Source: Ehretia macrophylla (taxonomy: Eukaryota; Streptophyta; Magnoliopsida; Boraginales; Ehretiaceae). Taken from it: 64,000 nt of DNA. This document shows, one piece after another, positions 3,519 to 62,993 of this stretch (position 1 is its first letter; each line of letters begins with the position of its first letter). A program made the translations under genes and the position numbers. The notes beneath the pieces were generated by a model. It was not told the DNA's origin. It did no database searches and saw nothing but the letters and a program-made list of their open reading frames with translations. The stretch spans positions 39,060,235-39,124,234 of the forward strand of contig CM075781.1 in the NCBI GenBank assembly GCA_037974665.1, read 5' to 3'.

Positions 3519-5979
3519 TGTAAGACCCAGCCCGAGACTACATCTGCATTAGGTCATATTATACATAACTAAATTATTTTATATGCATTTGACTTCTTTT
3601 ATATGCTGTTAAATAGGTTTATGTATGTTTACCTCAATTTACATGCATATCATCGTTTAACGTGCAACCGAATATTCTAGGTGTCGTAGGAAATTAATTA
3701 ACACTATAGAGCTAAGATTAGTAACTAAATATTTAGGAATTGACCAAAATGGCAAACTAGTAATACGCAAGCAAGTTGAAGGGTACTCTTGTCCTTGGCT
3801 AAAATTTACAAAATATCCTAATACTATTTGATCTCACCCTAGTCAAAACACACAAACACACACCATTACACACTCACACCACACGACTCAAACACATACA
3901 CATAATCTGAACACACTACACGATTTTGGCCAAGGAGAAGAGAGAGAGTAGAAGAAGAAGAAGAAATGAAGGAAGAGAAAAATAGAAGCAAGCCATTTTC
4001 AAGCTCTTCAACCATTTTCAATCAATTTTCTTCCATTTCTTACTCTTGCAAAGGTGAGGGATGTTTTCAATAGCTTTGCTAAAGCCATATGATTCATGGT
4101 TATGTGTTCATCTTGTTGTTGAGAATGATTAAGATGTACATGGTTTTATATTGTGCACTTGAGCTTTATTTGATGATTTAGGATTTCATGACTTGGTATT
4201 GTGTGGTTATGGCTTATGGGTGTTCTAGGATGCTAGATTAATGTTTAAGTGTGGATGTTACTCTTGAAGTGAAGTTGGTTGAGTGAGGAGACCGTTTAGA
4301 AGACAAGTCTTGAGCCTTGAGTGTTGTTGATATTTTGTTGTTTCTAGTTGTGCCCTAATGTGTTTGGTTGGAATTGAATCTATATGTAAGTTATAGTATG
4401 CTTGTGTGATGTTGGAAATATGGTAGAAGGATGAGGAATAGGGTGTATGTAAAGGAGTTGCAAGGGTGGTGGCAAAAAAAAAAATGGGGTGAATTTGTGC
4501 TTGATTGTGAATTTGGGGTGAAAATCGTGCCTGTTCGGGGGTAAACCCAGTTGTGTTATCACGACTGGGTAACCCAACCGGACAAATTCCAGTAACATCC
4601 GGACGTCATACCCGGTCGTGATCAACACGACCGGACTACCTGTTGTTCAGTTTGACAACTTTGCGCAATAATTTTCCGAAGACTATGTCTCACCCAATTT
4701 AACTCCAAATTGAGTTTTGTTTGATTCTAAAACTATCTGCTTTCGATAAACTTTAATTCTATACTAAAATAAGAGTATTTGGAGTATGGGAAAGTAGGGA
4801 AATTAACCGCTTAAGTTAGATTAATGCAAAAGTTGAAGTTGTTTACTTAGTTAGCTAACATGAACAAGGAACATTGAGGAGATTATTTGGGCATTGTAAG
4901 AACATGTATTTATTGATCTTTCATTACACTTCAAGTTTTTCTTGATGAAGTATTGATTGGCTTTGAACTTGTTAGATATCATTACTTCAATATGTTTGCA
5001 TGACGGAGACAACGTACTTTGTTGTCGTCCAAATATGTTCTTGCTTGATTAGTACCCACTCTCGCTTGGTGTGTTTCCTTGAAGAGTTGGGACGCATTTT
5101 TCCAATTGTTAAATAATACAAGTAGCTTATAAACCCCATGGTAGAAGTTCCGATTCCCTTGAGCGGCATCGGGTTGTCGGGTATAAGTCTCGGCTACCAT
5201 GGTTATGGGTTGCCTCCAGAGTGCCCATTCTTAATTGGCGTGATAAAGATGATTTGACAAGAAAGTTCGAGACTAGCCATCTCCAACAACTGTTCGCGTA
5301 TCTATATCATTTTTATCTGCTCTCGCTTAGTACAACCCTTGGAGAGTAGAATTAGGTACTTGTTTTGTTGTCGTTATTATATATATATGGTATTCAATTA
5401 TTAGTTGCTCTTATGTGCACGACATGAGTTATCAAACTGGTTTTGAGAGGATAAAGCCTGTGTGAAAACCTTAATTTCTCATCCTCACTGAGCTATATGC
5501 AGGATTAGCTCACCCATCTTTCTAGTACTTACAAGTGAGACCGAGGTCGAGCTAACTGTATAGGTTGAGGGCGATGAGGCTTTATGTGATGAGACTGACT
5601 TCTATTTTTGTTGATCTTCATGCTTGTGTTGAAGACATAGATTGTTAATAGAAACCGATGATGTACTTTTGAACAACCCTATATTATGTAATATTCTTTT
5701 GGATTATTAACTATATACTAAGCTTGATTACCATTCTTTTAAGGCCTAGATGTCTGTATTTGGCCATGTATGAGGTACAAGTAGGGAAGCTAGGTCTTGT
5801 AATTATGAAACAAGTTGTTGTGGCCTCTTAATGCCAAATGCCATGAGCATTCTTTTGAAGTTACTCGTGGAAGTTAATGAATGTTTAGGTTGTTAAAAAA
5901 TGATCTTACAGGTATTAAGCTGGTTAACACGTCGTGCTCCGACCTTAACCTCCACAGGCCTTGGTCCCGGGGCGTGACA
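3519..5979 (+). mobile_element. 5' LTR of a Ty3/gypsy retrotransposon
   Basis: The segment begins TGTAAGACCCAG and ends GGCGTGACA, the TG...CA boundaries of an LTR, about 2.46 kb long. It is followed 10 bases later by a tRNA-Met-type primer site and then by a gag frame, which fixes it as the 5' LTR. It belongs to the same family as the solo LTRs at 28561-30931 and 60144-62517, which lie on the opposite strand: both ends and several internal blocks match, for example TTATTTTATRTGCATTTG near the start and CGACCTTAACCTC / CGTCCTTAACCTC near the end. No 3' LTR partner was found, so the element is truncated. Confidence 0.85.
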
Positions 5980-6290: not shown

Positions 6291-7330
6291 ATGGCAGGTC
6301 ATAACACTCGTAGCAACACTGGATCCCAAGAGCGCAGGAATGCGAATCAAGCTAATCTCGGGATGGCGATGTTCAATTTGATGGCGATTGCTGTAGATAG
6401 AATGAGTCGAGTTATGGAACAACAAGCAGCAACGGCAAATAATAATAATAACAATAACAACAATCATGGTGCTGGTAGCAGTGATGGAAACGAATGTAAT
6501 AGGGGAGGTGATAACCTCAAGGATTTCTTGTTCTACAGCCCTCCGAAGTTCAGGGGCCAACCAAATAGTGAAGAGGCAGAATATTGCCTGTCTCGGATGA
6601 AGAAGATTTATGTTGCACGGGACTATGCAGAGGAGAAAAAGGTCGCCTATGCAGTCTTTCAGTTAGAAGGTGATGCAGAGACATGGTGGGATATAGTGAG
6701 AGATCAGTGGGAGGTTCAACATACTCTATTTACATGGAGGAACTTTGTTAGAGCATTCAAGAGTAAATACATATATAAGGTTTCTCGGGACAGGAAGATG
6801 AATAAGTTTATGTACTTAAAGCAAGGAAGCATGACGATGGCGGAGTATGGGACAAAATTTGATAGACTCTCCCAATATGCACCGTATATGGTCTAGACCC
6901 CGGCCACCAAGATATGGAAGTTTAACCAAGGGATGAGACTCGAGATTCAGGATAGGCTGAGAATAGCGGAGTTCGACACTTATAATGCTATTATTACGGT
7001 TGCATCGAGGGTTGAAGAGATAAAATTATCAATGAAGGTTGGTCTATCTTAGCAGAACAAGAGGCCCTTTCAGACTCAGGGTCAGTCTAGAGCATTCTAG
7101 ACCCAAAAGCCCTAGGATCAGGCTAGACTAGCAGTTATTAGGCCTCCGCCTAACGTCCCAACCACTCAGGTAGTTCGTGGAGCACCGGGAAGTGCAACTA
7201 CATCCTAAATTATTGTGTGCAAATATTGTAACAAGAAAAGGCACTCTAAAGCCCAATGTTGGAGGAAAAGTGGCAAGTGTATAAGGTGTGGAAGTGATCA
7301 ACATCTCGTTAAAGATTGCCCAAAGTGGCA
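6291..7330 (+). pseudogene. Ty3/gypsy gag with two CCHC zinc knuckles, broken by stops
   Basis: The frame starts at ATG 6291 (MAGHNTRS...), has an Asn-run region, then the retrotransposon gag core with FYSPPKFRGQ and GDAETWWD. It stops at TAG 6894-6896, but gag homology continues in the same frame, with further stops near 7050 and 7205. The C-terminal part from 7215 holds two consecutive C-x2-C-x4-H-x4-C knuckles (cysteines of the first at codons 2, 5 and 15 after 7215; the second at 22, 25 and 35), which bind genomic RNA in functional elements. There is no frameshift within gag, only nonsense mutations, so decay is by point mutation. Confidence 0.88.
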
Positions 7331-23430: not shown

Positions 23431-23589
23431 TACTAACCCTACATTTTTTTAATTTGTTTTAATGATGACATGACCACGAAACCTGTAACAGCACTCATTA
23501 AGGGCAAAATAGTCAATTCTCATGATCAACCTATTTTTTTATTAAATGAAAGCACCTAAGAGGAGAAAAAAAAATTGAGAGATCTTTTT

Positions 23590-23745
23590 TTTATCTAAGG
23601 CAAAAAACGTAGCTACCACCGAGGCTTTGGTCTGGCGATATGTTACTTGATTTGAGTGCGAGAAATTGAAAAAAAATTGAGTTTGAGGCAAAAAACGTTA
23701 CTACCACCAAGGCTTTTGTTTGGCGGTATGTTACTCGCTTTTGTC
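23590..23745. repeat. Tandem pair of GCTACCACC(A/G)AGGC blocks
   Basis: GGCAAAAAACGTAGCTACCA at 23600 is repeated about 86 bases later (23686) with GTTACTACCA, each followed by AGGCTTT and GGCG(G/A)TATGTTACT. A third, shorter version occurs at 24712-24745. The same layout is in copy B (about 55645, 55735 and 56766). Confidence 0.7.
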
Positions 23746-24772
23746 TGCGGTTGTAAGCACAGGTCTTGGTGGTTGCATCTTAATATGTGTCAAGTGAGTA
23801 CCTTATCTGAAAGTTTAAATTATTAGAGTGGGGTTTAATGTATTATTTAATTATTATCTTTAACATACTCGATGCAAATGCAAGCCGAGTTAGTGTTTGG
23901 GCCCTGTATTTAGACAGTTTTAATACATATACATATATATATATACACAACGGGTCAGATACCCACTAAAATTTATAAAACCAAATCCGAACCCGTTTAA
24001 ATTATATTTTACCAACCCGTGACGGAAACTCGTCGGGTTTAGATTTTGCTTACCAAACTCAAACCCGTTAAATATTTAAAAACTCGCGGATATCCAACCC
24101 GACCTGTTAATGAATAGAAAAAAGATTTTTTTTAAAGAAAAAGTTAAAAGGTTTTTAAAAGAAATTAAAAGAAGTACTAAAATAATAACAAATCGAAATG
24201 GATTAAAAAAGAATAAATTAAATTTCTTTTCTATAAACAAATATAAACTAAAAAAAAACATTCAGTGAAATCTTTATACTGAGAAACTATCATCCTTCCA
24301 TAATAATATGAAATAACCTGAAGAAAAAAAAAATAAAGTACTTGTCACAATTATAAATTATCATTCTCGTTTGAGTTATTGAGCAATTGAGCGGTTGTAT
24401 TAGTTAAATTAGATAAAAGAATAAGTAAAATTAAACTATGAGGGTTAACAATTTATAATAAGAGTTGAACTATAGCCCACAACTGTTAATCTTGAATTAA
24501 TATTAAAAATTTATATTTTCTTAAATAATGTATTATTTGTATATGTAAGTAAATATATAAACATTTTTATTAATTTTTTAAACTAAATTACTAATCGGGT
24601 TTTCGACTTTTGAATTTGTTTTAAATTGTTATTATCAAACCCTATCGGATTATCCATATGTAACTACTTGTAAAAATCAAACCCTAATGGATAATTAGGA
24701 GATCTTTGATGGCAAAAAAAAAACGTAGCTACCGAGATACCCCTTTCTCATTTTCTTGCATCTATAACACAT
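23746..24772. other. AT-rich non-coding DNA within copy A
   Basis: No supported gene. It includes a short TA run at 23930-23945 and long A/T tracts. It is conserved in copy B at 55800-56823. Confidence 0.6.
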
Positions 24773-24818
24773 TTACCTAGCGTTGAAAGGAAGAAAAATT
24801 GCCCGGAGTCCTCCAGCT

Positions 24819-25589
24819 TTACTTGCTTTCCTTTTCCAATTTCTCTTTGATAGGACTCTGATCATCATCCGTTCCTCCATCCGTTGAGTTTCCACCAAAA
24901 ACCTTGTTGCCTTCAGTGGCCCTAGATGCAGCGGCAGTTGGCTTCTGATGTTCATCCTCGCGTGCGCCATTTGACTTGGCTTCACCTTCAAACTGGTTGC
25001 CTTTAGTGGCCCTAGATGCAGCGGCAGGTTCAGATAGCGTCAATCTTCCAGTTGGCTTCTGATGTTCATTCTTTCGTGCGCCACTTGACTTGGCTCCAGG
25101 TACAAACTTGTTGCCTTTAATAGTCACAGCTGCAGAGGCAGGTGCGGGTGCCGTGAATTCCTTAGTTGACTTTTGATGTTCATTCCTTGACTTGCCATCA
25201 TACTTGTTGTCTTTAGTCGCCTTAGCTGCAGCGCCAGTTGTAATATTACTTGGCGTCGATGCACCAGTTGACTTCTGATCATCACCCTTTCGTGCATTCC
25301 ATGCCTTTTCACCATCAAACTTGTTGCCTATAGTGACCATAGCTGCAACAACAGGTGTAGTTGGAGGCAATGCTCCACTTGAGTCCTGATATTCATCCTC
25401 TGGTGCATCACTTGAGTTGCCACCACAACACTTGTTGTTATTAATGACCTTTGCTGCAGAGGAAGGTTTACTTGGCGCCGATGCTCCAGTCGAGTTCTGA
25501 TCATCATTCTTTTGCAGATTGTTTGGACCGCTAGCAGGACGGACATTCGGGGCAGTAGTTGGAAGGGGAGGAGGAGAAGGGGAATCCAT
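24819..25589 (-). CDS. Hypothetical repeat-rich hydrophilic protein, copy A (256 aa)
   Basis: Not recognised. The frame starts at ATG 25589 (MDSPSPPPLP), with a Pro-rich N-terminus, then about six degenerate units of 30-40 residues with the core (D/E)-(H/D)-QKSTGA...AATKGNKFDG...KSSGAR, and ends EKLEKESK. It is very hydrophilic, lacks a signal peptide and membrane segment, and is probably disordered. Two other frames of 64-72 codons overlap it because the repeats are compositionally biased. The paralogue at 56870-57481 keeps the start, the stop and the frame despite losing repeat units in multiples of three bases, which supports coding. No intron or partner gene is seen. A non-coding origin cannot be excluded. 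Confidence 0.55.
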   Translation of the reverse strand: MDSPSPPPLPTTAPNVRPASGPNNLQKNDDQNSTGASAPSKPSSAAKVINNNKCCGGNSSDAPEDEYQDSSGALPPTTPVVAAMVTIGNKFDGEKAWNARKGDDQKSTGASTPSNITTGAAAKATKDNKYDGKSRNEHQKSTKEFTAPAPASAAVTIKGNKFVPGAKSSGARKNEHQKPTGRLTLSEPAAASRATKGNQFEGEAKSNGAREDEHQKPTAAASRATEGNKVFGGNSTDGGTDDDQSPIKEKLEKESK

Positions 25590-25620
25590 TAGGGTTCAAT
25601 TTCTTAGTTTCCAAAAGTAT

Positions 25621-26130
25621 AGATATCTCCAGTTCTCCGATCCGCCTGTGATGATATATAAGAAGACGTTTAGTGAGCACGCGTAAATATTATCAGTTAA
25701 TGTCTTTTATTGACAAATTCGTAACTCATGCATGAAACAGTTTGCAGTGTTTCTCATTTATTTGGTTGAATGCACGCCACTTAATTGGTTGGTGTTAGGT
25801 TTTAAAATAATTAATATATATGACTGAAATAATTGAATAATAATTTAATGTAATTAAAAATTTTAATTTTGAATTATAATTTCGTGTTAGGTTTTAAAAT
25901 AATTAATATATATACAACTGAAATAATTGAATAATAATTTAAAGTAATTAAAAATTTTAATTTTGAATTATAATTTCAGAATCATTCCAAAACAAAAAAG
26001 TTCTTGTTAATTGGCTTATGTGCAATCATTTCTTTAGAATAGATTTCTCCAGTTCTCCGATCCGCCTGTGATGATATATGAGAAGACGTTTAGTGAGCAC
26101 GCGTAAATGTTATCAGTTAATGTGTTTTAT
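25621..26130. repeat. 420-bp direct duplication upstream of the repeat-protein gene, copy A only
   Basis: A roughly 90-base block with TCCAGTTCTCCGATCCGCCT occurs at 25628 and again at 26048, spaced 420 bases apart. Copy B has only one (about 57520), so it lost the intervening part or A gained it. Confidence 0.85.
25792..25977. repeat. 92-bp tandem repeat
   Basis: GTGTTAGGTTTTAAAATAAT starts at 25792 and again at 25884, with near-identical AT-rich bodies. Copy B keeps only the beginning of one unit. Confidence 0.85.
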
Positions 26131-26428
26131 AGGTTATAGCTAAGAACTTCATGAGCATCACTTCAGTGGCAGAAATTAAAGTTTCTCTTTTGTGATACTT
26201 CTGACAATTTCATTTTACATGTGTTGAGTCAAATTGGTTTACATTTGAGTTACGAAAATATTCTCTAAAAGATTATATAAATCGAAGTTGCCACAAATTC
26301 ATGTTAATTATATAAAATGCATTTTATTTTATGGATAATATTGTTTTATGTTACGTCTCCAATATGAACTGGCTCCCTTGTTTCAAGAGTCGAGTTAAAT
26401 GGTTAACTAGAGATCCGAATAATTATAA

Positions 26429-26804
26429 TGTAACGAACTTGAATTTTAGAGAGAGAGAGTAAACGGGAATTAAAGGAAAAAGTGTATAAATTGAGTGCTT
26501 TGTATTGAATTGCAGAAAAATAAGAAAGCAATTACAGTAAAGAAAAGTAAATAATATGATAGTTGATAGCTTAGCTTTCCTCTGCCTATTCTCTAGCTTA
26601 TATAGCATTCCCCTTAGCTCACATGCACAATGCCTAATAGAATATGATTGTAGCTAATAAGACACGTATTCATTTAGTTGCTGAGACGTGGTCTTGGTTC
26701 ATGTGCACCTTCTAATAGCGTGATCCACCACTGCATTAGGCTCGATAGACGAGGTTGAGCTAATATCATTCATAGAGAAGTCCCGAGCTATTGGGGTTAT
26801 AACA
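26429..26804 (-). repeat. 3' LTR of the gene-capturing element, copy A
   Basis: 376 bp; on the minus strand it begins TGTTATAACCCC and ends GTTACA. A TATATAAG box lies near 26596-26604. Confidence 0.9.
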
Positions 26805-26819
26805 TTACCTTACCTTTTT
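26805..26819 (-). other. Polypurine tract
   Basis: Minus strand AAAAAGGTAAGGTAA directly abuts the TG of the 3' LTR, the expected place for plus-strand priming. It is preceded by CCTTGAGGACAAGG, a phrase common upstream of plant gypsy 3' LTRs. Confidence 0.8.
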
Positions 26820-26849
26820 GAAAGAACCTTGTCCTCAAGGTTCAAGGAA

Positions 26850-26999
26850 AAACCAGGCAGCTTTGTGGCATAGGCTAATTAACTCAAATTGTTTCTCAAA
26901 ATACTTCTTTTGAATCTCATACGGGCATAAATGAAGCCTGTCATAATCCAATCCACATTTGCTAATCGCCACCATCTTTTCTTTCTCAATTCCCTCTTT
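26850..26999 (-). pseudogene. TatD-type DNase fragment (captured)
   Basis: The minus-strand frame gives [20 protein letters not shown] followed by [21 protein letters not shown], which matches the conserved N-terminal part of plant TatD-related metal-dependent DNases, where the motif is [10 protein letters not shown]. In copy A the metal-binding Glu is Lys (SKCG), while copy B keeps GECG. A small insertion after FEL shifts the frame before [12 protein letters not shown] sequence. Only about 50 codons of a protein of over 300 residues are present. It cannot be functional as an enzyme. Confidence 0.8.
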
Positions 27000-27034
27000 A
27001 TCATATGATCCCGCCACAGACCTTGATATGTAGA

Positions 27035-27157
27035 GCACCAATTGTAACGATCCAAATAGAAATAGAACAATAATTGAGCAATTGAGATTGTATTGCCGAC
27101 TTTTCTCATCGAGAGCTTGAAGGAAAAGAAAATAACAGAAAGGAAATAACAAGATTG
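27035..27157 (-). other. Possible internal U5/primer-site remnant of a related LTR element
   Basis: On the minus strand this stretch is pyrimidine-rich with CAAGCTCTCGATGAG and ends CGTTACAATTGGTGCTC. That resembles the end of the element's own LTR (AAAGCTCTCAAT ... GTTACATTGGTGG). It separates the PDI and TatD pieces and could mark a template-switch junction. The resemblance is short. Confidence 0.4.
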
Positions 27158-27820
27158 ATTCTTCTCTGGAATAGAATCGGATTTGTAGAAAGGTTTGAGA
27201 TTATCTTGTAGAAATTTCTCCCTGAATGACTTAATATTGCTCTCGGATATTTCACCATCCAATAAAAATTTCCTTGTATCCTAATTTCCTATATATGCAA
27301 GAACATTTGTAGCCTTTCCATTGACACCAAAGTATCCCGAGACTGGTTTTCCAACTTTTTCATTATATAATTCCACATAAACAGAGATAACCTTCCCCTT
27401 AAAAGCTTTTGCCGCTTCTTTGAACACCAGTAGAAACTTCTCAGAATCTTTGGAAGTTGCAAAAAGTATCAACTGTTTCTCGATTGGATTCTCAAAAGCA
27501 TGAGAGGCAGTTTCTCGTGTAAGATTGATAACCAGAGGAAACTTGTTGATAAATACAAAATCAGCAATGGCTGATTTAGTGAATTCACCACCAAAATGGC
27601 TAATCTTTTCAACTTTTTTCTTGATGACTACTACAGCAGGTCTTTTGACATCTGGATCAATGTGAAAGAGTTTTGCCACATCTGAACTGGTAGTCTGATA
27701 AAAGTCGACATCATCTTCCAATTTTGAAGCAGCAGCAAGTTCATTGCTCTCTGAACCCACAATTGCGTTCAAAAATCCAAATACAACTGGTTTTCCGGCA
27801 GCCAAGATCTTTTCCTTCAT
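27158..27820 (-). pseudogene. Protein disulfide isomerase (PDIL1-3/1-4 type) fragment, captured and intronless
   Basis: About 220 codons match the b and b' thioredoxin-like domains and the start of a' of plant PDI-like 1-3/1-4: PVVFGFLNAIVGSESNELAA, LEDDVDFYQT, DVAKLFHIDPDVKRPA, GGEFTKSAIADFVF, KQLILFATSKDSEKF, GKPVSGYFGV and finally [12 protein letters not shown]. Both CGHC catalytic sites lie outside the fragment. Copy A has a GAG-to-TAG stop at 27287-27289, after LAYIGN; the frame continues beyond it. No intron is present over this length although plant genes of this family are multi-exon, so the source was probably spliced RNA. In the donor gene the product is an ER-lumen folding enzyme. 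Confidence 0.9.
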
Positions 27821-28222
27821 GCTTTTATTCTTGCCCTTTCTGGCAAGAGTGAGAAAGAGCTCAACTGATTCTTGTGCAGAATAGTATCTGGACAAGTGCA
27901 GTAGTTGTCGTCCTACAACCAGATCATAAAATTTCAAGCCAACCCAGTAGTAGACCACCTCAAACCAGCCAAAACATGGTGCCATGCATGGCAAAGCAAG
28001 GCAGAGGTGTAAAGCATTGTCAATAACTTGTTTATGATCCTCCAAGGCATGAAAAACCAACTTTAACTACCCATAGTCCAGGTTAAATACAACTTTCTCC
28101 AAATAATGAACTCATCCATGAAGTAACTTTGTGGACCTAGAAGAAGTCCTAGAGGCAAAGTCTTCACATTTTACGAGGCCAACACGGAGGCCATGGCTGA
28201 CGGCATCAAGAGCGACTCTGTC
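27821..28222 (-). pseudogene. Mitochondrial FAD glycerol-3-phosphate dehydrogenase (SDP6-type) fragment, captured
   Basis: The order [31 protein letters not shown], then (after a TGA) VHYLEKVVFNLDYG, (a TAG) and LKLVFHALEDHKQVIDNA, ALPCMAPCFGWFEVVYYW, RQLLHLSRYYSAQESVELF follows the N-terminal FAD-domain part of FAD-dependent glycerol-3-phosphate dehydrogenase of the inner mitochondrial membrane. Two in-frame stops (about 28112 and 28072) are shared with copy B, so they predate the duplication. The dinucleotide-binding GxGxxG lies upstream of the captured piece. At about 27820 the frame runs without interruption into the PDI fragment. Confidence 0.9.
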
Positions 28223-28225
28223 ACC

Positions 28226-28300
28226 AACAAACGATAAGATCCTAACGAAGTACTCCCGCCCAACCGATGACAAAACAATCGCGTGATTCTCATCAATAAG
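28226..28300 (-). pseudogene. 26S proteasome ATPase RPT2 micro-fragment (captured)
   Basis: Twenty-five codons read [20 protein letters not shown] then ILSFV. This closely follows the N-terminal OB-fold region of plant RPT2 (regulatory subunit 4), where ENHAIVSSSVGPEYYVGILSFV is conserved. It is fused in frame to the PPR piece upstream and the dehydrogenase piece downstream within one 121-codon frame. The match is short but specific. Confidence 0.72.
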
Positions 28301-28477
28301 AAAATTCAACAACAAATTATAACTAAACGTCCCGGGTTTAAACCCAAATTCATTTTCCATAACATCAAGTATACGAATAGTTTCATTATAAAATTTGAAT
28401 TTCGCATAACATTCGATGAATAAGAAGAAAGTACTATCACTTATGTTAACATCTGAACCCTGTTTTATGTCATTCAT
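28301..28477 (-). pseudogene. Pentatricopeptide repeat (PPR) protein fragment (captured)
   Basis: The first 59 codons of the frame starting at ATG 28477 contain [20 protein letters not shown] and [15 protein letters not shown], matching the helix pattern of PPR motifs (about one and a half repeats). PPR proteins act in organelle RNA processing. Sequence upstream of the ATG (to 28560) may be more of the same gene with stops. The frame runs straight into the RPT2 piece. Confidence 0.78.
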
Positions 28478-28560
28478 GCCTAAAAACTGTTTGCCGAAAC
28501 GTTAAATCCAGAGAATGTTCGAATTGTTTATGATTGACATGCGTTGCTCGTTACCGCCGC

Positions 28561-30931
28561 TGTCACGCCCCAGCCCCAGCCCCGAACCCGCAGAGGTTAA
28601 GGACGGAACGTGACGTGTCGAATACCCTAATACCTATAAGATCATGAATTAATAGCCTAACATTCACTTATGTACCACAAGTAACTTCAAAAGATGGCCC
28701 AACTCCTGGGGCACATCATGACTTGATTAACCTGATCAATATATGTATATATACAAGACATAGTTCCTCCAAGCTTTCATGACACAATTCATTCAAAGAC
28801 TTCTAGGTCTCAAAAGAATAAAATACTAAGTTAAATTATAACCCAGCTGTCCAAAAGAATAATTCAATCCATCAAGTTATACAAGTACAAGATTAATTCT
28901 ATTATAACAAGAGTTATCCAACAGATACAAACAGAATCACAACAGATAGAAATCTGCCTCATCACACAATTCAACTTCGCTCTCGACCTGTACGATCGGC
29001 TCGGCCTCGGCCTTACCTGAAATTATTAGAAAAAAGGGTGAGCTACACCACTTAGCTCAGTGAGGAATACCGGGGTAGGGATTTTCACAGGTGTTTTATC
29101 TTTCATTTTGAAATCATTTAGAAAGTCATATCATGCATACAAGATCAATTAACAAAATAACAACAACATATAACAAGATAACAACAACATATAACCCGAC
29201 TCTCCAAGGGCTAGGGCCCAAGCAAGAGTGGTAAGATAAGATTAAAAGGACACAGTTGTCTTGCAGTAACTGGAGACGACCGGCCTAGTAATAATCATCA
29301 ATATCAACCTCTGACTCCATACCATAGGGTAATCCGGATAAACCCAAGTTCCTACGACCCACTTCTCCAAGGCTTAAATCCAAGCAAGAGTGAGATTGGG
29401 GACCATGGTAGTCGAGACCTTCTGGCAAGCCCGATGCCGCATAGGGGAAACGAACGCTACCATACCCGTAGAATGGCTGCATCATTGCCACACACACACA
29501 TATTCCAGCCATAATTGCACATAACACAAGTAGATGACAGGAAGGAGGCAACAAAGTAGGTTGCCTCTGTTACAAGAACAATTGTCAATGGCATAACAGA
29601 TGAGCATGAAAGCAATTAGTATGTATACCAATTGCAGTACCATAAGTAACACCACAAGTATGCTTGAATAACCACATGTACTACACTTCTCAACATATTT
29701 ACATGGTCTATAACCTATAATATTGGACAACCTACTCAACACGCATTTTCATAACATACCATAACCGAAAACAATGGAATGAACCCAATTGAGAAGTTCG
29801 GTCGTGTACCCAGTTGTGTTGATCATGATTGTGTACACGACCGTCAGAATGTATGTCAAAAGTTCGGTCGTGTACCCTGTTGGGTTGATCACTACCGTGT
29901 ACATGATCATCAGAATGTATGCCAAAATACGGGAGTGTACCCGATTTTATTAAACACAACCGGGTACACGACCTTCCCCCTGCGATGCCAAAACGCGTAG
30001 TTGGCCATTTTGCTCCTAACATGATTTCTTACTTCTAACACTTATCCAAACATCTAATATCCTCAAAAGGTGCTGTCAACCAATATATACAAGTTCAATA
30101 ATCATACCATAACATCCTTGAAACATCAATTAGCATCAAACCAACCATGAATCTGCCTTAACTCAAGAACACCCAAAAACACCCATCAAACTCTAATATG
30201 TTTAACTTTTATTTTTTCTCTTGCATACCACTTATACACTCTCCAACACAAGTAATAGCATCATCTAAACCATGGTAACACTTCCCAACTCATCAAGATC
30301 ATTATTTACACAAGCAAGAGAATGCCCTAGCTCAACCAATCCATAACGCAACAACCCACCCCATAAGCCTTTAGTTTATGCACCATAAGCAAGAAAACAA
30401 CATATATATACACCATGTAACCTTGTATGAACTTTGAGAAAAGCTTTTGAAAGAATCTCTCACCTTTACAAGAGTTAGAAATGCAAGAAAATGTTGTAAG
30501 ATGCAAGAGAAAGCTCAAGAATGGCTTGATGATGCTTGGCATGGCTTAACTTCTTCTCTTCTCCTTCTTCCTTCTTATTCCCTTCTTATTTTCTCCTTTC
30601 TTCTTCCGCCTTAGCTGGATCGTGTAGTGTGTGTGTGTGTGGTATAGTGTATGTATGTGTTTTGTTTTAGTTAGTGGAAAATGTTAGGTAGGATATTATT
30701 TGGCTAAGGCCAATTACCAAGTTGCCCTTTTAACTTAATGTGTTTTCCTAGTTTGCCATTCGGTCCAATTTTTAGTAGTTTAGTTAGCCAATGTTATCTA
30801 ATAGGGTTTAATTATAGCCTATGTTAACTAAAATACTCCAATGCACATTAAACGATGCAAATGCACATAAAATAATTTATTTATATATCATATGAACCAA
30901 ATACACATGAGGTCACGTGTCGGGCCTTACA
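28561..30931 (-). mobile_element. Nested solo gypsy LTR, copy A
   Basis: On the minus strand it starts TGTAAGGCCCGACACG and ends GGGGCGTGACA, 2371 bp, and belongs to the family of the LTR at 3519-5979. It stands alone with near-matching 5-bp flanks (GCCGC at 28556-28560, ACCGC at 30932-30936), as left by recombination between two LTRs. It interrupts the gene-capturing element between gag and the PPR fragment. The same insertion is present in copy B, so it predates the duplication. Confidence 0.88.
29795..29998. repeat. Tandem hairpin units inside the solo LTR
   Basis: Three units of about 60-70 bases each pair GGTCGTGTACCC-like and GGGTACACGACC-like arms around TTGATCA. Frames on both strands here arise from the repetition. 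A diverged version is in the LTR at about 4540-4635. Confidence 0.75.
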
Positions 30932-30993
30932 ACCGCCATTTGAAGAGATATCGTCGTTGATCATCTGTAACGAAGTATCTTCGTCGGATTTCA

Positions 30994-31407
30994 TTACAAT
31001 GTCGTTGCATGAGGTATGGTCTTCCGATGTAACAACAGTTGGTGGAAAATTAAACTGGAGTACCCATGATAGTGGTGATTGGAGAACTCACCGATTAAAT
31101 AGGCAGAATTGTCAGAGCTATCTATGTGGACGAAACCCGGAAGGGTAGTAGGTGTTGTCGCCGATGATAGTGTAGAAGATGTCATCATCACCGTTGACAA
31201 AGTGGGCACCGAAGATGGTAGAGCTCCAAATTTGTCAATTAAGAGCGCAATATATCGGTCAAATTTGGCGTCAAGAGTTGTGAGTGTAGAATTGAGAGTG
31301 CCAAGAGTTTGTTGATGGTCATCGAGCCATTGAGAATGCTTGGTTGCAATTTGTTCAAGCTTCTTCACCGTTTCCTCCATAGCATCAAGTGTTGTTTCGT
31401 CCGCCAT
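30994..31407 (-). CDS. Gag-like N-terminal protein of the gene-capturing element, copy A
   Basis: The frame begins at ATG 31407 (MADETTLDAMEE), 26 bases inside the 5' LTR end, and runs 137 codons. It has a predicted coiled-coil start (VKKLEQIATKHSQWLDDHQQ, TLNSTLTTLDAKFDRYIALL) followed by a Ser/Thr-rich linker, as in the N-terminus of plant gypsy Gag. The capsid core and zinc knuckle are missing. The solo LTR and host fragments follow directly. The frame is also open in copy B (62580-62993). Whether it is made is unknown. Confidence 0.6.
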   Translation of the reverse strand: MADETTLDAMEETVKKLEQIATKHSQWLDDHQQTLGTLNSTLTTLDAKFDRYIALLIDKFGALPSSVPTLSTVMMTSSTLSSATTPTTLPGFVHIDSSDNSAYLIGEFSNHHYHGYSSLIFHQLLLHRKTIPHATTL

Positions 31408-31432
31408 GTTCGACACTCAACGAAACCACCAA
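31408..31432 (-). other. Primer-site region of the gene-capturing element
   Basis: TTGGTGGTTTCGTTGAGTGT follows the GTTACA end of the 5' LTR on the minus strand. The position is right for a primer-binding site; the primer tRNA is not identified. Confidence 0.5.
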
Positions 31433-31808
31433 TGTAACAAACTTGAATTTTAGGGAGAGAGAGTGAATGAGAATTAAAGAAAAAAGTGCAAAAATTGAGA
31501 GCTTTGTTTTGAATTACAGAAAAACAAGAAAGCAATTATAGTAAAGAAAAGTAAATAAGATGATAGTTGATAGATTAGCTTTCCTCTACCTATTCTCTAT
31601 TTTATATAGCATTCCCCTTAACTCACATGCCCAATGCCTAACATAATATGGTTGTAGCTAATGAGACACGTATTTATTTAGTTGCTGAGATATGGTCCTA
31701 GTTCATGTGCACCTTCTAATAGCGTGATTCACCACCGCATTGGGCTCGATAGACCGGGTTGAGCTAATATCATCCGTAGAGAAATCTCGAGTTATTGGGG
31801 TCATAACA
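31433..31808 (-). repeat. 5' LTR of the gene-capturing element, copy A
   Basis: 376 bp, paired with 26429-26804. A TATATAAA box lies at about 31599-31607 on the minus strand, with some 165 bases to the LTR end, which suits R and U5. Confidence 0.9.
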
Positions 31809-32420
31809 TATAAGTTCTGAGTTCACCACGACTTCGGCTTGCATGATATCAAAAGAAATAAGAAAAAAAGGAAGAAAAAAAGAAAGACCATCAACTTATT
31901 CACTGTGGCGATTATACATTAAATTACTAACGTTTCTTTTTTGCATATTTTTAATATAAAGTCAAGACGCATGCATTATATTACGGTCCACATTTAGTGG
32001 AATTGAGTATGATACATTTGTCCAATTGTGAAGATCGGACTACCATATGCATAATGTTTCATACTGATTGCGAAGTTAAAAGAAAAAAAAAGCATTCAGT
32101 CCATTTCATTCGGGCAACATTTAAGCTTAATATCTTAACTTGATTATGATTTACAATTTTAAATTCAACATATTTGAACTAATTATAATTAATTTTAATA
32201 TTCTCTTTCTAAGGACCGATGATATACAGCTAATAGCTTATATGATGGATGAGAATCATCACATAGTTTGAGGAAAAGTCAATATATCCACATTGGATGG
32301 GAGATTGGACTCAAGACATTTTTAAATATACTTAATTTTATGTTTGATCATGTTGTCTAGGTTTTTATTCATTTTTTTAAAAAAAAAATCCTCCATAAGT
32401 TATTCAATCAATTCATAGTT
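31809..32420. other. Flank of the element within copy A, start of a degenerate repeat region
   Basis: No gene. It contains the first of several copies of a phrase of the type ATGG(A/G)(G/T)TAAGATATATTTGTCC (here near 32000). It matches 63397-64000. Confidence 0.6.
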
Positions 32421-45799: not shown

Positions 45800-46753
45800 A
45801 GACCTGTATCTCCTACTTCAACTCCTTACAATCCTTAGTATTATGCCCAAAATCGTTGTAAAATCAGCAGAACTTGTTCTTTAACCTCCTCTCAAGCCGA
45901 CCACCCATCCTGGGTGGGGGAGGTATGTTGTACTAGGTTTGCACCTCCATCAAGTTTCGTTTCCTTAGAGCATTAAGGGGTGTAAACATTATAAACCTCG
46001 ACTTTTGCCTCCATTATTACTGCTGCTATTTTCCTTTGTCAGCTTGGGCTTTATTCCCGGGCTGACTCTTCGGTGCAGAGAACTCCTCCTTCTTTGTCAA
46101 CTCATCCTCCTTATCATCATCTCTATTTGCCTGGTGGATCTCTTCAACATGGATATATCCCTAAGTCCTGACCATCAGATCGGCAATGGTATCCACTGGG
46201 TTGATAGCCAATGATAATATGAGAGCTCCCGACTAAGCCCACTTTGGTAAGCTATCAACACCATGGAATCCTCGAGGTAAGGAATCCTAAGAGACTCCTC
46301 GTTGAGCCGAGTTGTGTATGACCTCAGGGTCTCTTTTTTTTGCTGTCGAACTGTCAACAGTGAAGAAGTATGTCACGTCGGGCGTCAACTCCCTACGAAC
46401 CAAGCCAAGAATGCCTCTGCTATCTCGGTGAATGTATCGATCGATCCCGACGGGAATTCTTGATACCAAGTTAGCGCGTTCCCCACTAATGTGGTCGGGA
46501 ATGCCTTACACTTCACTGCATCGATCATGTCATGGAGAGTCATGTGATGGTCAAAGTTCCTGAGGTAGCTGGTCAGTTCTCCCTCTCTATTGTACATGGC
46601 TAGGTTAGGCATACAGTTACCCGCAGGTATTGGAGTGGCCAAAATATCCAGGGTCAATGGACTAACCCTGAGCTGATAGATGACTTTAACAATCGCTACC
46701 GCAGTCTTAGTTGGTTCGGGCTCAGTATAGGCTACTATCTTCCCCTTTATCAC
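45800..46753 (-). pseudogene. Gag of the Tat element
   Basis: The frame from 46753 contains CKAFPTTLVGNALTWYQEFP and IDTFTEIAEAFLAWFVGS, and continues through a frameshift to TVRQQKKETLRSYTTRLNEE and PYLEDSMVLIAYQSGL (46175-46357). A CxFYNDFGHNTKDC zinc-knuckle-like motif lies near 45828-45880 with one mutated Cys position. Plant Tat/Athila-type retrotransposon gag domain. Confidence 0.85.
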
Positions 46754-47185
46754 CTCGGGACGATGAACAGGCCCTGTGGATCCCCAATCGTCAGCTTCGT
46801 TTCGAGCCCCTCGCGCTTGCTCCAGAACACCTCTTTCATACCTCGGGTAGGTTAACTAAACCCAGGTTTGGTGCTTCGGTGGAGTCGGTTGATTTACAGA
46901 AAGGAGACTCACCCTGTCTTGGAGCTTTTTGAACATCTGGAACAAAAACTTTACCTCGGGACTCATAAAAGCCGTTGGATCCACCGCTTCAAGCTGGAAA
47001 GTGTTTGTGGCTAAGAGTATACGCTAACTCGGTCCAACGCGGGCTTAGGTTAGGTTTGTGTTGGGGGCCGTTTTAGGTATCCCTTCCGAATATGGAGGGT
47101 CCTCGGCCACATAACTATGGCTTCTTGTGTTTACCATGGTGGTTTTACTCAGTGGGTTGGTGGGAAACCTGGGAAGAGCTTTCTC

Positions 47186-55189: not shown

Positions 55190-55500
55190 TGGGGTGATGG
55201 ATGGTGAGATTGGATGTAAGGTGGATTTACATAAAAGCTACTAACCCTACATTTTTATTTATAAAAAAAATATGTGTATTTACCACTAATCTTTTAAAAA
55301 TATGACTATTTTTTTTACAAAAAATAAAATTACTCCAACTATAAAAAATACTAGAATTATAGCTCCCACTGAAATAATAATCTAGATCCACCCTAGATAA
55401 CGTAAGGCTCTTTAGATATATATATATATAGGGTAGGGTGATGGATGGTGAGATTGGGTGTTAGGTGGATTTACATAAAAGCTACTAACCCTACATTTTT
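55190..55500. repeat. 65-bp direct repeat at the left edge of duplication copy B
   Basis: A block from GTGATGGATGGTGAGATTGG to CTACTAACCCTACATTTTT occurs at about 55193-55253 and again at 55438-55500. The second occurrence leads directly into the duplicated segment, and the segment's similarity to copy A starts within its last 18 bases. Confidence 0.85.
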
Positions 55501-56869
55501 TTAATTTGTTTTAATGATGACATGACCACGAAACCTGTAACAGCACTCATTGGGCAAAATAGTCAATTCTCATGATCAACCTATTTTTTATTAAATGAAA
55601 GCACCTAAGAGGAGAAAAAAAAATTGAGGGACCTTTTTTATCTAAGGCAAAAAACGTAGCTACCACCGAGGCTTTGGTTTGGCGGTATGTTACTTGATTT
55701 GAGTGCGAGAAATTGAAAAAGAAATTGAGTTTGAGGCAAAAAACATAGCTACCACCAAGGCTTTTGTTTGGCAGTATGTTACTCACTTTTGTCTGTGGTT
55801 GTAAGCACAGGTCTTGGTGGTTGCATCTTAATATGTGTCAAGTGAGCATCTTATTTGAAAGTTTAAATTATTAGAGTGGAGTTTAATGTATTATTTAATT
55901 ATTATCTTTAACATACTCCATGCAAATGTAGGCCGAGTTAGTGTTTGGGCCCTGTATTTAGACAGTTTTAATACATATACATATATATATATACACAACG
56001 GGTCAGATACCCACTAAAATTTATAAAACCAAATCCGAACCCGTTTAAATTATATTTTACCAAACCCATGACGGAAACTCGTCGGGTTTAGATTTTGCTT
56101 ACCAAACTCAAACCCGTTAAATATTTAAAAACTCGCGGATATCCAACCCGACCTGTTAATGAATAGAAAAAAGATTTTTTTTAAAGAAAAAGTTAAAAGG
56201 TTTTTAAAAGAAATTAAAAGAAGTACTAAAATAATAACAAATCGCAATGGATTAGAAAAGAATAAATTATATTTCTTGTCTATAAACAAATTTAAACTAA
56301 ATAGAAACATTCAGTGAAATCTTTATACTGAGAAACTATCATCCTTCCACAATAATATGGACTAACCTGAAGAAAAAAAAATATAAAGTACTTGTCACAA
56401 TTATAAATTATCATTCTCGTTTGAATTATTGAGTAATTGAGCGGTTGTATTAGTTAAATTATATAAAAGAATAAATAAAATTAAATTATGAGGGTTAACA
56501 ATTTATAATAAGAGTTGAACTATAGCCCACAACTATTAATCTTGAACCAATATTAAAAAAATTAGATTTTCTTAAATAATGTATTATTTGTATATGTAAG
56601 TAAATATATAAACATTTTTATTAATTTTTTTAACTAAATTACTAATCGGATTTTCGACTTTTGAATTTTTTTAAATTGTTATTATCAAACCATATCGGAT
56701 TATCCATATATAATTACTTGTAAAAATCAAACCCTAATGGATACTTAGGGCTCTTTGATGCCCAAAAAAAGAAACGTAGCTACCGAGATACCCCTTTCTC
56801 ATTTTATTGCATCTATAACACATTTACCTAGCGTTGAAAGGAAGAAAAATTGCCCGGAGTCCTCCAGCT

Positions 56870-57481
56870 TTACTTGCTTTCCTTTTCCAATTTCTTTTTG
56901 ATAAGACTCTGATCATCATCTGTTCCTCCATCCGTTGAGTTTCCACCAAGAACCTTGTTGCCTTCAGTGGCCCTAGATGCAGCGGCAGGTTCAGTTGGCT
57001 TCTGATGTTCATCCTCGCGTGCGCCACTTGACTTGGCTTCACTATCAAACTGGTTGCCTTTAGTTGTCATAGCTGCAGCGGCATGTGGTGGTGCCGTGAA
57101 TGCTCCAGTTGACTTTTGATGTTCATTCCTTGACTTGCCATCATACTTGTTGTCTTTAGTCGCCTTAGCTGCAGGGCCCGTTGTAATATTACTTGGCGTC
57201 GATGCACCAGTTGACTTCTGATCATCATCCTTTCGTGCAACAACAGGTGTAGTTGGAGGCAATGCTCCACTTGAGTCCTGATATTCATCCTCTGGTGCAT
57301 CACTTGAGTTGCCACCACAACACTTGTTGTTATTAATGATCTTTGCTGCAGAGGAAGGTTTACTTGGCGCCGATGCTCCAGTCGAGTTCTGATCATCATT
57401 CTTTTGCAGATTGTTTGGACCGCTAGCAGGACGGACATTCGGGGCAGCAGTTGGAAGGGGGGGAGGAGAAGGGGAATCCAT
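56870..57481 (-). CDS. Hypothetical repeat-rich hydrophilic protein, copy B (203 aa)
   Basis: Paralogue of 24819-25589 with the same MDSPSPPPLP start and EKESK end. Compared with A it lacks most of the second unit (AMVTIGNKFDG region) and about one further unit around the fourth and fifth, 53 residues in all, without losing the frame. The C-terminal SPIKEKL is SLIKKKL. Function not recognised. In-frame indels suggest slippage or recombination between repeats, with either selection on the frame or chance. Not assigned to any family. Confidence 0.55.
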   Translation of the reverse strand: MDSPSPPPLPTAAPNVRPASGPNNLQKNDDQNSTGASAPSKPSSAAKIINNNKCCGGNSSDAPEDEYQDSSGALPPTTPVVARKDDDQKSTGASTPSNITTGPAAKATKDNKYDGKSRNEHQKSTGAFTAPPHAAAAMTTKGNQFDSEAKSSGAREDEHQKPTEPAAASRATEGNKVLGGNSTDGGTDDDQSLIKKKLEKESK

Positions 57482-58439
57482 TAGGGTTCAATTTCTTAGT
57501 TTCCAAAAGTATAGATATCTCCAGTTCTCCGATCCGCCTGTGATGATATATAAGAAGACGTTTAGTGAGGACGCGTAAATATTATCAGTTAATGTCTTTT
57601 ATTGACAAATCCGTAACTCATGCATGAAACAGTTTGCACTGTTTCTCATTTATTTGGTTGAATGCACGCCACTTAATTGGTTGGTGTTAGGTTTTAAAAT
57701 AATTAATATATATACGACTGAAATATTATCAGTTAATGTGTTTTATAGGTAATAGCTAAGAACTTCATGAGCATTACTTCAGTGCAGAAATTAAAGTCTC
57801 TCTTTTGTGATACTTCTGATAATTTCATTTTACATGTGTTGAGACAAATTGGTTTACATTTGAGTTACGAAAATATTCCCTAAAAGATTATATAAATCTA
57901 AGTTGCCACAAATTCATGTTAATTATATGAAATGCATTTTATTTTATGGATAATATTGTTTTATGTTACGTCTCCAATATGAACTGGCTCCCTTGTTTCA
58001 AGAGTCGAGTTAAATGGTTAACTAGAGATCCGAATAATTATAATGTAACGAACTTGAACTTTAGGGAGAGAGAGTAAACGGGAATTAAAGGAAAAAGTGT
58101 ATAAATTGAGAGCTCTGTATTGAATTGCAGAAAAATAAGAAAGCAATTACAGTATAGAAAAGTAAATAATATGATAGTTGATAGCTTAGCTTTCCTCTGC
58201 CTATTCTCTAGCTTATATAGCATTCCTCTTAGCTCACATGCACAATGCCTAATAGAATATGATTGTAGCTAATAAGACACGTATTCATTTAGTTGCTGAG
58301 ACATGGTCTTGGTTCATGTATGTCTTCGATAGATGAGGTTGAGCTAATACCATTCATAGAGAAGTCCCGAACTATTGGGGTTATAACATTACCTTACCTT
58401 TTTGAAAGAACCTTGTCCTCAAGGTTCAAGGAAAAATCA

Positions 58440-58583
58440 GGCAGCTTTGTGGCATATGCTAATTAACTCAAATTGTTTCTCAAAATACTTCTTTTGAATC
58501 TCATACAGGCATAAATGAAGCCTGTCATAATCCAATCCACATTCGCCAATCGCCACCATCTTTCCTTTCTCAATTCCCTTTTT
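58440..58583 (-). pseudogene. TatD-type DNase fragment, copy B
   Basis: Same piece as in copy A, here with the family-typical [14 protein letters not shown], so copy B is closer to the donor at the metal-binding Glu. Confidence 0.82.
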
Positions 58584-58741
58584 ATCATATGATCCTGCCA
58601 CAGACCTTGATATGTAGAGCACCAATTGTAACGATCCAAATAGAAATAGAACAATAATTGAGCAATTGAGATTGTATTGCCAACTTTGCTCATCGAGAGC
58701 TTGAAGGAAAAGAAAATAACATAAAGGAAATAACAAGATTG

Positions 58742-59403
58742 ATTATTCTCTAGAATAGGATCGGATTTATAGAAAGGTTTGAGATTATCTTGTAGAAATT
58801 TCTCCTTGAATTACTTAATATTGCTCTCGGATATTTCACCATCCAATAAAAATTTCCTTGTATCCTCATTTCCTGTATATGCAAGAACATTTGTAGCTTT
58901 TTCATTGACACCAAAGTATCCTGAGACTGGTTTTCCAACTTTTTCATTATATAATTCCACATAAACAGAGATAAAATTCCCCTTAAAAGCTTTTGCCGCT
59001 TCTCTGAACACCAGTAGAAACTTCTCAGAATCTTTGGAAGTTGCAAAAAGTATCAACAGTTTCTTGATTGGATTCTCAAAAGCATGAGAGGCAGTTTCTT
59101 GTGTAAGATTGATAACCGGAGGAAACTTGTTGGTAAATACAAAATCAGCTATGGTTGATTTAGTGAATTCACCACCAAAATGGCGAATCTTTTCAACTTC
59201 TTTCTTGATGACTACTACAACAAGTCTTTTGACATCTGGATCAATGTGGAAGAGTTTTGCCACATCTGAACTGGTAGTCTGATAAAAGTCGACATCATCT
59301 TCCAATTTGAAGCAGCAGCAAGTTCATTGCTCTTTGAACCCACAATTGCGTTCAAAAATCCAAATACAACTAGTTTTTCGGCAGCCAAGATCTTTTCCTT
59401 CAT
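58742..59403 (-). pseudogene. PDI-like fragment, copy B
   Basis: Same extent as in copy A. The codon that is TAG in A is GAG here, so AYTGNEDTRKFLLDGEISES reads through. Instead a TCA-to-TAA change stops the frame after SNIK (58811), and a one-base loss near 59307 breaks LEDDVDF from the upstream part. The lesions in A and B are therefore independent. Confidence 0.88.
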
Positions 59404-59805
59404 GCTTTTATTCTTGCCCTTTCTGGCAAGAGTGGGAAAGAGCTCAGCTGATTCTTGTGCAGAATAGTATCTGGACAAGTGCAGTAGTTGTCGTCCTACA
59501 ACCAGATCATAAAATTTCAAGCCAACCCAGTAGTAGACCACCTCAAACCAGCCAAAACATGGTGCCATGCATGGCAAAGCATGGCAGAGGTATGGAGCAT
59601 TGTCAATAACTTGTTTATGTTCCTCTAAGGCATGAAAACCCAACTTTAACTACCCATAGTCCAAGTTAAATACAACTTTCTCCAAATAATGAACTCATCC
59701 ATGAAGTAACTTCGTGGACCTAGAAGAAGTCCCAGAGGCAAAGTCTTCACACTTTACGAGGCCAACACGGAGGCTACGGCTGACGGCATCAAGAGCGACT
59801 CTGTC
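59404..59805 (-). pseudogene. FAD glycerol-3-phosphate dehydrogenase fragment, copy B
   Basis: Same piece and same two internal stops as copy A. Here several residues are closer to the family ([25 protein letters not shown]), so copy B has changed less at those sites. Confidence 0.88.
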
Positions 59806-59808
59806 ACC

Positions 59809-59883
59809 AACAAACAATAAGATCCTAACGAAGTACTCCCGCCCAACTGATGACAAAACAATCGCGTGATTCTCATCAATAAG
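59809..59883 (-). pseudogene. RPT2 micro-fragment, copy B
   Basis: Reads [20 protein letters not shown] then ILLFV, one substitution from copy A. Confidence 0.7.
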
Positions 59884-60060
59884 AAAATTCAACAACAAAT
59901 TATAACTAAACATCCCGGGTTTAAACCCAAATTCGTTTTCCATAACATCAAGTATACAAATAGTTTCATTATAAAATTTGAATTTCGCATAACATTCGAT
60001 GAATAAGAAGAAAGTACTATCACTTATGTTAACATTTGAACCCTGTTTCATGTCATTCAT
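59884..60060 (-). pseudogene. PPR fragment, copy B
   Basis: Starts [20 protein letters not shown] and is otherwise the same as copy A. The fused PPR-RPT2-dehydrogenase frame of 121 codons stays open. Confidence 0.78.
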
Positions 60061-60143
60061 GCCTAAAAACTATTTGCCGAAACGTTAAATCCAGAGAATG
60101 TTCAAATTGCTTATGATTGACTTGCGTTGCTCGTTACCGCCGC

Positions 60144-62517: not shown

Positions 62518-62579
62518 ACCGCCATTTGAAGAGATATCATCGTCGATCATCTGTACCGAAGTATCTTCGTCAGATTTCA

Positions 62580-62993
62580 TTACAATGTCGTTGCATGAGG
62601 TATGGTCTTCCGATGTAACAACAGTTGGTGAAAAATTAAACTAGAGTACCCATGATAGTGGTGATTGGAGAACTCACAGATTAAAAAGGCAGAATTGCCA
62701 GAGCTATCTATGTGGACATAACCCGGAAGGGTAGTAGGTGTTGTCGCCGATGATGGTGTAGAAGATGTCATCATCACCGTTGACAAAGTGGGTGCCGGAG
62801 ATGGTAGAGCTCCAAATTTGTCAATTAAGAGCGCAATATATCGGTCAAATTTGGCATCAAGAATTGTGAGTGTAGAGTTGAGAGTGCCAAGAGTTTGTTG
62901 ATGGTCATCGAGCCATTGAGAATGCTTGGTTGCAATTTGCTCAAGTTTCTTCACCGTCTCCTTCATAGCATCAAGTGTTGTTTCGTTCGCCAT
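62580..62993 (-). CDS. Gag-like N-terminal protein, copy B
   Basis: ATG at 62993 (MANETTLDAMKE), 137 codons, open and collinear with 30994-31407 with about a dozen substitutions. The retained frame is notable for such a small relic, but many of the changes alter amino acids, so selection is not evident by eye. Confidence 0.58.
   Translation of the reverse strand: MANETTLDAMKETVKKLEQIATKHSQWLDDHQQTLGTLNSTLTILDAKFDRYIALLIDKFGALPSPAPTLSTVMMTSSTPSSATTPTTLPGYVHIDSSGNSAFLICEFSNHHYHGYSSLIFHQLLLHRKTIPHATTL

Follow-up and report, generated by a model that had tools for sequence, protein, structure and literature searches.

A stretch of 64,000 nucleotides from Ehretia macrophylla (contig CM075781.1 of assembly GCA_037974665.1, positions 39,060,235 to 39,124,234; hereafter the window) harbours a decayed long terminal repeat (LTR) retrotransposon at positions 26429-31808, the interior of which holds fragments apparently derived from five unrelated plant genes. 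The element reads on the minus strand and is delimited by a pair of LTRs of 376 bp each (5' LTR, 31433-31808; 3' LTR, 26429-26804) with TG...CA termini, which are 89.4% identical over 379 aligned bases (Kimura two-parameter distance, K2P, 0.117). It is flanked by the 5-bp target site duplication (TSD) TATAA at 26424-26428 and 31809-31813. Both the two 376-bp LTRs and the TSD had been reported in a preliminary description of the locus and were confirmed here. In sense direction, the 5' LTR is followed by a leader, a gag-like open reading frame (ORF), an unassigned stretch, fragments of a pentatricopeptide repeat (PPR) protein, RPT2, FAD-dependent glycerol-3-phosphate dehydrogenase (FAD-GPDH) and protein disulfide isomerase (PDI), a further unassigned stretch, a TatD DNase fragment, a tail and the 3' LTR. 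Disregarding a solo LTR nested in the interior (28561-30931), the element measures approximately 3.0 kb. The window contains a second copy of the element (copy 2; 58044-63396, minus strand), and the copy at 26429-31808 is referred to as copy 1.

Directly behind the 5' LTR, the leader with a primer binding site-like sequence, TGGTGGTTTCG, extends over 31408-31432; this sequence may match the 3' end of a plant tRNA-Val. Scanning of the entire window revealed neither tRNA genes nor members of RNA families. At the opposite end, the element tail (26805-26845) carries a candidate for the polypurine tract claimed earlier: the stretch AAAAAGGTAAGGTAA sits beside the 3' LTR, but it is weak and interrupted by two T. 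The last 40 bp ahead of the 3' LTR resemble the 3' end of pol and may be a remnant of it.

The five donors named in the preliminary description were confirmed, and all five host gene pieces are located on the minus strand, in agreement with the sense orientation originally stated. The PPR protein fragment (28307-28450, 48 codons) is the weakest match of the five: its E-value of 2.2e-10 to PPR10 in the PDB sums weak matches over many repeats, the best single stretch was obtained with mS80/At3g02650 (6xyw_BG; E 4.4e-5), and the match to Pfam PPR_2 (PF13041; E 0.033) stays under the cut-off. The chain's first 100 residues retrieved no match at E 0.001 from a large protein set (30 candidates of about 245-780 aa). 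The adjoining 25 codons (28226-28300) are assigned to the 26S proteasome ATPase RPT2, since in the PDB they match 8amz_I, which is listed as an AAA domain-containing protein (E 1.3e-6), as well as a chain of 26S proteasome regulatory subunit 4 (E 3.1e-6). The following 132 codons (27821-28216) derive from an FAD-GPDH of the SDP6 type, as indicated by PDB entry 3da1_A (E 7.8e-11) and by NCBIfam (E 1.1e-15), the latter match remaining far below the whole-protein cut-off, as expected for a fragment. Database alignments span about 115 of these 132 codons; the remaining codons presumably belong to the same gene, given their resemblance to plant SDP6. The FAD-binding motif published for maize (PMC6039019, available passages) matches the start of the FAD-GPDH piece from VALDAV onward. 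A separate "unknown" source for the start of the 261-aa ORF was ruled out, as this stretch continues the FAD-GPDH in the same frame.

The longest piece (27164-27817, 218 codons) encodes part of a PDI of the PDIL1-3/1-4 type, is devoid of introns and contains one stop in copy 1. It matches Pfam Thioredoxin_6 (E 2.4e-20) and shares at most 72% identity with plant PDIL1-3/1-4 proteins among the 120 listed of 1079 matches to the chain (candidates of 245-780 aa). In a tree that combines the piece with all listed plant proteins but one (119 of 120), it groups with P0075 from Lithospermum erythrorhizon (Boraginaceae) and P0005 (support 100/98). Judged from this one fragment and the species listed, the host would probably belong in or close to Boraginales. 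The protein left out of the tree was P0001 from Thalictrum; this top match was ruled out as a relative of the chimera, since all it shows is an internally repeated PDI. The last piece (26877-26987), with 37 aligned codons, belongs to a TATDN1-like TatD DNase according to the TATDN1 chains 8efg_A and 2xio_A (E 1.5e-10); its match to Pfam PF01026 (E 1.7e-4) falls under the curated cut-off.

Three stretches remain between these parts. On reading of the ORFs, 28451-28560 is in frame with the PPR ORF and has one stop common to both copies, while 30932-31087 lies in the phase of the same ORF and is open in copy 1 and interrupted by one stop in copy 2; the latter stretch has no Pfam match, and 38 of its residues are without a PDB match. 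The stretch between the PDI and TatD pieces (27010-27163) contains a motif resembling an LTR end or primer binding site, CGTTACA ATTGGTGCTC, near position 27047. A U5/primer-site piece of a second retroelement in this stretch is retained as no more than a hint; similarity to the U5/leader of the element itself does not exceed chance, being reached in 45 of 500 shuffles that preserved two-base blocks only.

An ORF of 137 codons plus stop (30994-31407; ATG at 31407, stop at 30994-30996) begins behind the leader and corresponds to the gag-like start of the preliminary description. The ORF itself stands, but it contains no Pfam gag domain, and no relative was retrieved in a protein search with 359 candidates of about 439-1397 aa, a range that does not cover shorter gag-only proteins; the designation gag-like reflects position and appearance. 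When the 20 ORFs of at least 60 aa that overlap the element were scanned with Pfam, neither a pol nor a gag domain was detected, consistent with the earlier claim that pol has been replaced. Therefore, the element is non-autonomous and is classed by its ends rather than by its genes. Because it has no recognisable pol, reverse transcription and integration would have had to use the proteins of a helper.

The origin of the host gene pieces is best read from the PDI piece, which aligns to the plant PDI P0005 across 217 residues without a gap. In the accessible parts of the respective reports, 12 exons are given for pear PDIs of the same length class (PMC11353384) and 10-11 exons for PDI group II of Chinese cabbage (PMC5691835), the group to which the piece would belong judging from the length of 571 aa in the pear table. 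Since its 654 bp lack any intron as compared to 10-12 exons in such genes, the sequence points to a spliced mRNA as source; a copy made at the DNA level would be expected to contain several introns. Six exons are given for the FAD-GPDH genes of Arabidopsis (PMC6039019) and cotton (PMC8912411), and seven for that of maize (PMC6039019). The 132 codons of the FAD-GPDH piece are continuous as read from the element itself, and the intron argument is weaker here than for PDI. Retained introns, named in the preliminary description as a finding that would speak against RNA capture, are thus absent from the PDI piece, with the FAD-GPDH piece arguing weakly in the same direction.

The locus probably represents a non-autonomous LTR retrotransposon in which template switching inside a helper-supplied particle put pieces of five cellular mRNAs in the place of pol and of most of gag. 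Element RNA would have been reverse transcribed in a particle built from the proteins of a helper element. Minus-strand synthesis may then have jumped from the element RNA to co-packaged cellular mRNAs, in the order of synthesis those for TatD, PDI, FAD-GPDH, RPT2 and PPR, and would finally have returned to gag and to the primer binding site; one round or several may have been involved. The resulting DNA integrated once, generating the TATAA duplication; a gypsy-like element later inserted and collapsed to a solo LTR, after which the whole chromosomal segment was duplicated. If minus-strand synthesis leaves one packaged RNA on its 5' side and resumes in the interior of another, intron-free, internal pieces in sense orientation, abutting one another, are predicted between intact retroelement ends, which fits the observed pattern.

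Assembly at the DNA level, with the pieces joined as filler DNA during end joining or within a Helitron or Pack-MULE and later placed between LTRs, would be in line with the higher frequency of gene-fragment capture by DNA transposons: in maize, 1194 captures by Helitrons and 462 by other DNA transposons stand against at least 189 by LTR elements (PMC2774510, as far as available). We nevertheless regard it as quite improbable, in view of the intron-free 654-bp PDI piece, the sense orientation of five of five pieces and the absence, in the 25 repeat pairs listed out of 29, of inverted repeats at the borders of the chain. Moreover, LTRs and a single TSD enclose the whole, which was therefore integrated as a unit.

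From position 28501 down to 27165, the PPR, RPT2, FAD-GPDH and PDI pieces share one reading frame of 445 codons with three stops; over the same stretch, the two remaining sense frames are interrupted by 15 and 42 stops, and the antisense frames by 19 to 36. This common frame had been overlooked in the preliminary description. An in-phase TAA is present upstream at 28502-28504 in both copies, and the frame of the chain may therefore begin past this codon. The TatD piece is read in a different frame. Two of the three stops of copy 1, both in the FAD-GPDH piece, are common to copy 2, which has four stops in total (two extra) and a 1-bp deletion. Simulated neutral decay since insertion produced 1.5 new stops on average and three or more in 19% of the runs, and the four-piece frame may hence have been open at insertion. 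Between the copies, dN/dS amounts to 0.94 across 444 codons (one gapped codon left out); there are 11 synonymous and 38 nonsynonymous single changes, a codon with two changes being excluded from this tally. Comparison of the two copies thus provides no sign of purifying selection after the duplication, and the chain has evolved neutrally since then.

The chance of three joins staying in frame is 1 in 27, that of five of five pieces lying in sense direction 1/32; both figures were noticed post hoc and carry modest weight. The former would favour a different course of events, in which the four in-frame pieces were united beforehand in a chimeric transcript of the host or a chimeric retrogene that was captured in a single jump, TatD being added separately; the deviating frame of TatD and the unassigned stretch of about 150 bp that sets it apart agree with this. 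Against such a precursor, none of the 120 listed matches has an alignment beginning before query residue 200, and none joins PDI to most of the FAD-GPDH piece. Furthermore, each piece comes from within its gene and includes neither the start nor the end, which is unusual for a working gene, and we consider the chimeric precursor unlikely. A bolder proposal is that the element arrived with an ORF of at least 445 codons fusing PPR, RPT2, FAD-GPDH and PDI, assembled from at least five mRNAs in one or a few replication cycles, and that the hybrid was translated into a protein that served the element or its host until decay set in. This is a doubtful extension of the sequence data; if true, single LTR elements would assemble fusion genes of several domains much more easily than the known three-donor cases suggest.

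About 2.4 kb of the element interior, overlooked previously, consist of the nested solo LTR (28561-30931, 2371 bp, minus strand). Its ends in sense direction are TGTAAGGCCC...GGGGCGTGACA, and it is flanked by GCCGC (28556-28560) and ACCGC (30932-30936), a TSD with one mismatch. It resembles, with local identities of 65-79%, an LTR of 2461 bp at 3519-5979, which is followed by the primer site-like sequence TGGTATTAGAG and by a Ty3/gypsy-type gag ORF at 6291-6896 (Retrotrans_gag, E 6.5e-16; Ty3_capsid, E 9.6e-11). Judged by this homology, the nested solo LTR is assigned to another, Ty3/gypsy-like family. It is present in both element copies (60144-62517 in copy 2). Within it, at 29794-29990, three 66-bp direct repeats (61-85% identity to the first) containing inverted repeats were observed. 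The nested LTR demonstrates that the element did take one later insertion, as would be assumed if separate retrocopies had been inserted singly into an old LTR element after its integration. Such stepwise accretion is very improbable: on reading of the sequence, though not systematically, no TSDs or poly(A) tracts were found between the fragments, only internal coding pieces are present, the joins keep the frame and all pieces are in sense orientation.

Copy 2, located 31.6 kb downstream and likewise missed before, is flanked by TATAA on both sides and by the same flanking sequences as copy 1, as revealed by self-comparison of the window. It is carried by a direct duplicate of 23431-32419 at 55483-64000 (plus strand), about 32 kb apart, which may extend beyond the end of the window. 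Since flanks and TSD match, copy 2 is a segmental duplicate and was ruled out as proof of transposition. K2P between the duplicates amounts to 0.034 in the left flank, 0.033 in the right flank and 0.040 in the host pieces. Because two stops, the nested LTR and the TSD are common to both copies, the events can be ordered: the element inserted first (LTR K2P 0.117), the other element then inserted into it and was reduced to a solo LTR, and the segment was duplicated last. The 5' LTRs of the two copies (31433-31808 versus 63019-63396) differ by a K2P of 0.091, compared to 0.03-0.05 in the other compared stretches, which suggests gene conversion from another member of the LTR family. By a rough estimate, capture probably preceded insertion only shortly, because the PDI branch of 0.19 changes per site in the tree is little above the value of 0.14 replacements per codon that neutral decay since insertion should have produced on the LTR clock. 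The duplication includes a repetitive ORF (24819-25595 and 56870-57487), the first copy of which has no Pfam family above cut-off.

Several points weigh against serial capture of five mRNAs. The assignment of the PPR piece is weak, making it the least certain of the five donors, and about 150 bp (PDI-TatD) and about 265 bp (gag-PPR) are without an assigned source. The RPT2, PPR and TatD pieces are so short that each could fit inside a single exon, and are thus silent on splicing; that they too stem from spliced mRNAs would follow from the proposed mechanism. The joins were read from the element alone. A single insertion event is seen, and mobility rests on LTRs and TSD. The earlier proposal of capture by template switching and movement with helper proteins accordingly holds in part: five unrelated sense pieces, the longest of them without introns, fit it, but the search with the gag-like ORF among candidates of about 439-1397 aa yielded neither a helper nor an autonomous relative.

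A related case, invoked already in the preliminary description, is Bs1 of maize, an element without working pol. According to the available passages, Bs1 carries pieces of three host genes (H+-ATPase, xylan endohydrolase and beta-1,3-glucanase) forming a chimeric gene, and its transcription and translation have been reported (PMC13317346). Both elements contain host pieces from unrelated donors between their LTRs (PMC13317346), which are exon-only in Bs1 (PMC4717578); they differ in the identity of the donors and in their number, three versus five. GmaRetroS15, a soybean terminal-repeat retrotransposon in miniature (TRIM), similarly has LTRs and 5-bp TSDs around pieces of three host genes, which are transcribed and free of introns; the gene-carrying soybean TRIMs, however, span 1172-1449 bp (PMC4717578, accessible part), as compared to approximately 3.0 kb, a gag-like ORF and five donors here.

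A survey of maize B73 listed 425 LTR elements with gene fragments and at least 189 captures, and demonstrated that gypsy, copia and unclassified LTR elements capture fragments of nuclear genes, as is the case for the present element. In the available part of that survey, and under its conditions, no element was recorded as holding two or more standard nuclear genes, although Bs1 is a maize element (PMC2774510). In rice and sorghum, 672 and 1343 captured genes, respectively, were counted in the portion available (PMC3726574). The proposed switching between RNAs during reverse transcription resembles that described for Triticeae complexes, which retain the outer TSD; as far as that source was accessible, these complexes fuse two retrotransposons (two such complexes tabulated; PMC1950507), whereas the additional templates would here be cellular mRNAs.

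Limited searches of titles, abstract starts and passages of the open-access literature found no LTR element for which a donor number above three is reported, and the preliminary statement that five sources are unusual agrees with this. The locus is accordingly classified as a gene-transducing LTR element of the Bs1 type, its five donors being unusual in number and the element known in kind. To the extent covered by these searches, gene capture by LTR elements in print comprises single captures and a few three-gene cases, as opposed to five in one insertion here, the order of events of which can be read from LTR divergence, nested solo LTR and later duplication. The element illustrates the possible reach of serial template switching in a plant; if read beside the parental genes, its joins would reveal whether microhomology guided the jumps and whether one cycle or many were involved.

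Two further features of the window lie apart from the element and its duplicate. Positions 1-2742 comprise a tandem array with an offset near 455-490 bp and copies 84-90% identical. A minus-strand ORF at 46385-46855 has a weak match to Retrotrans_gag (22.9 bits versus a cut-off of 24.1).

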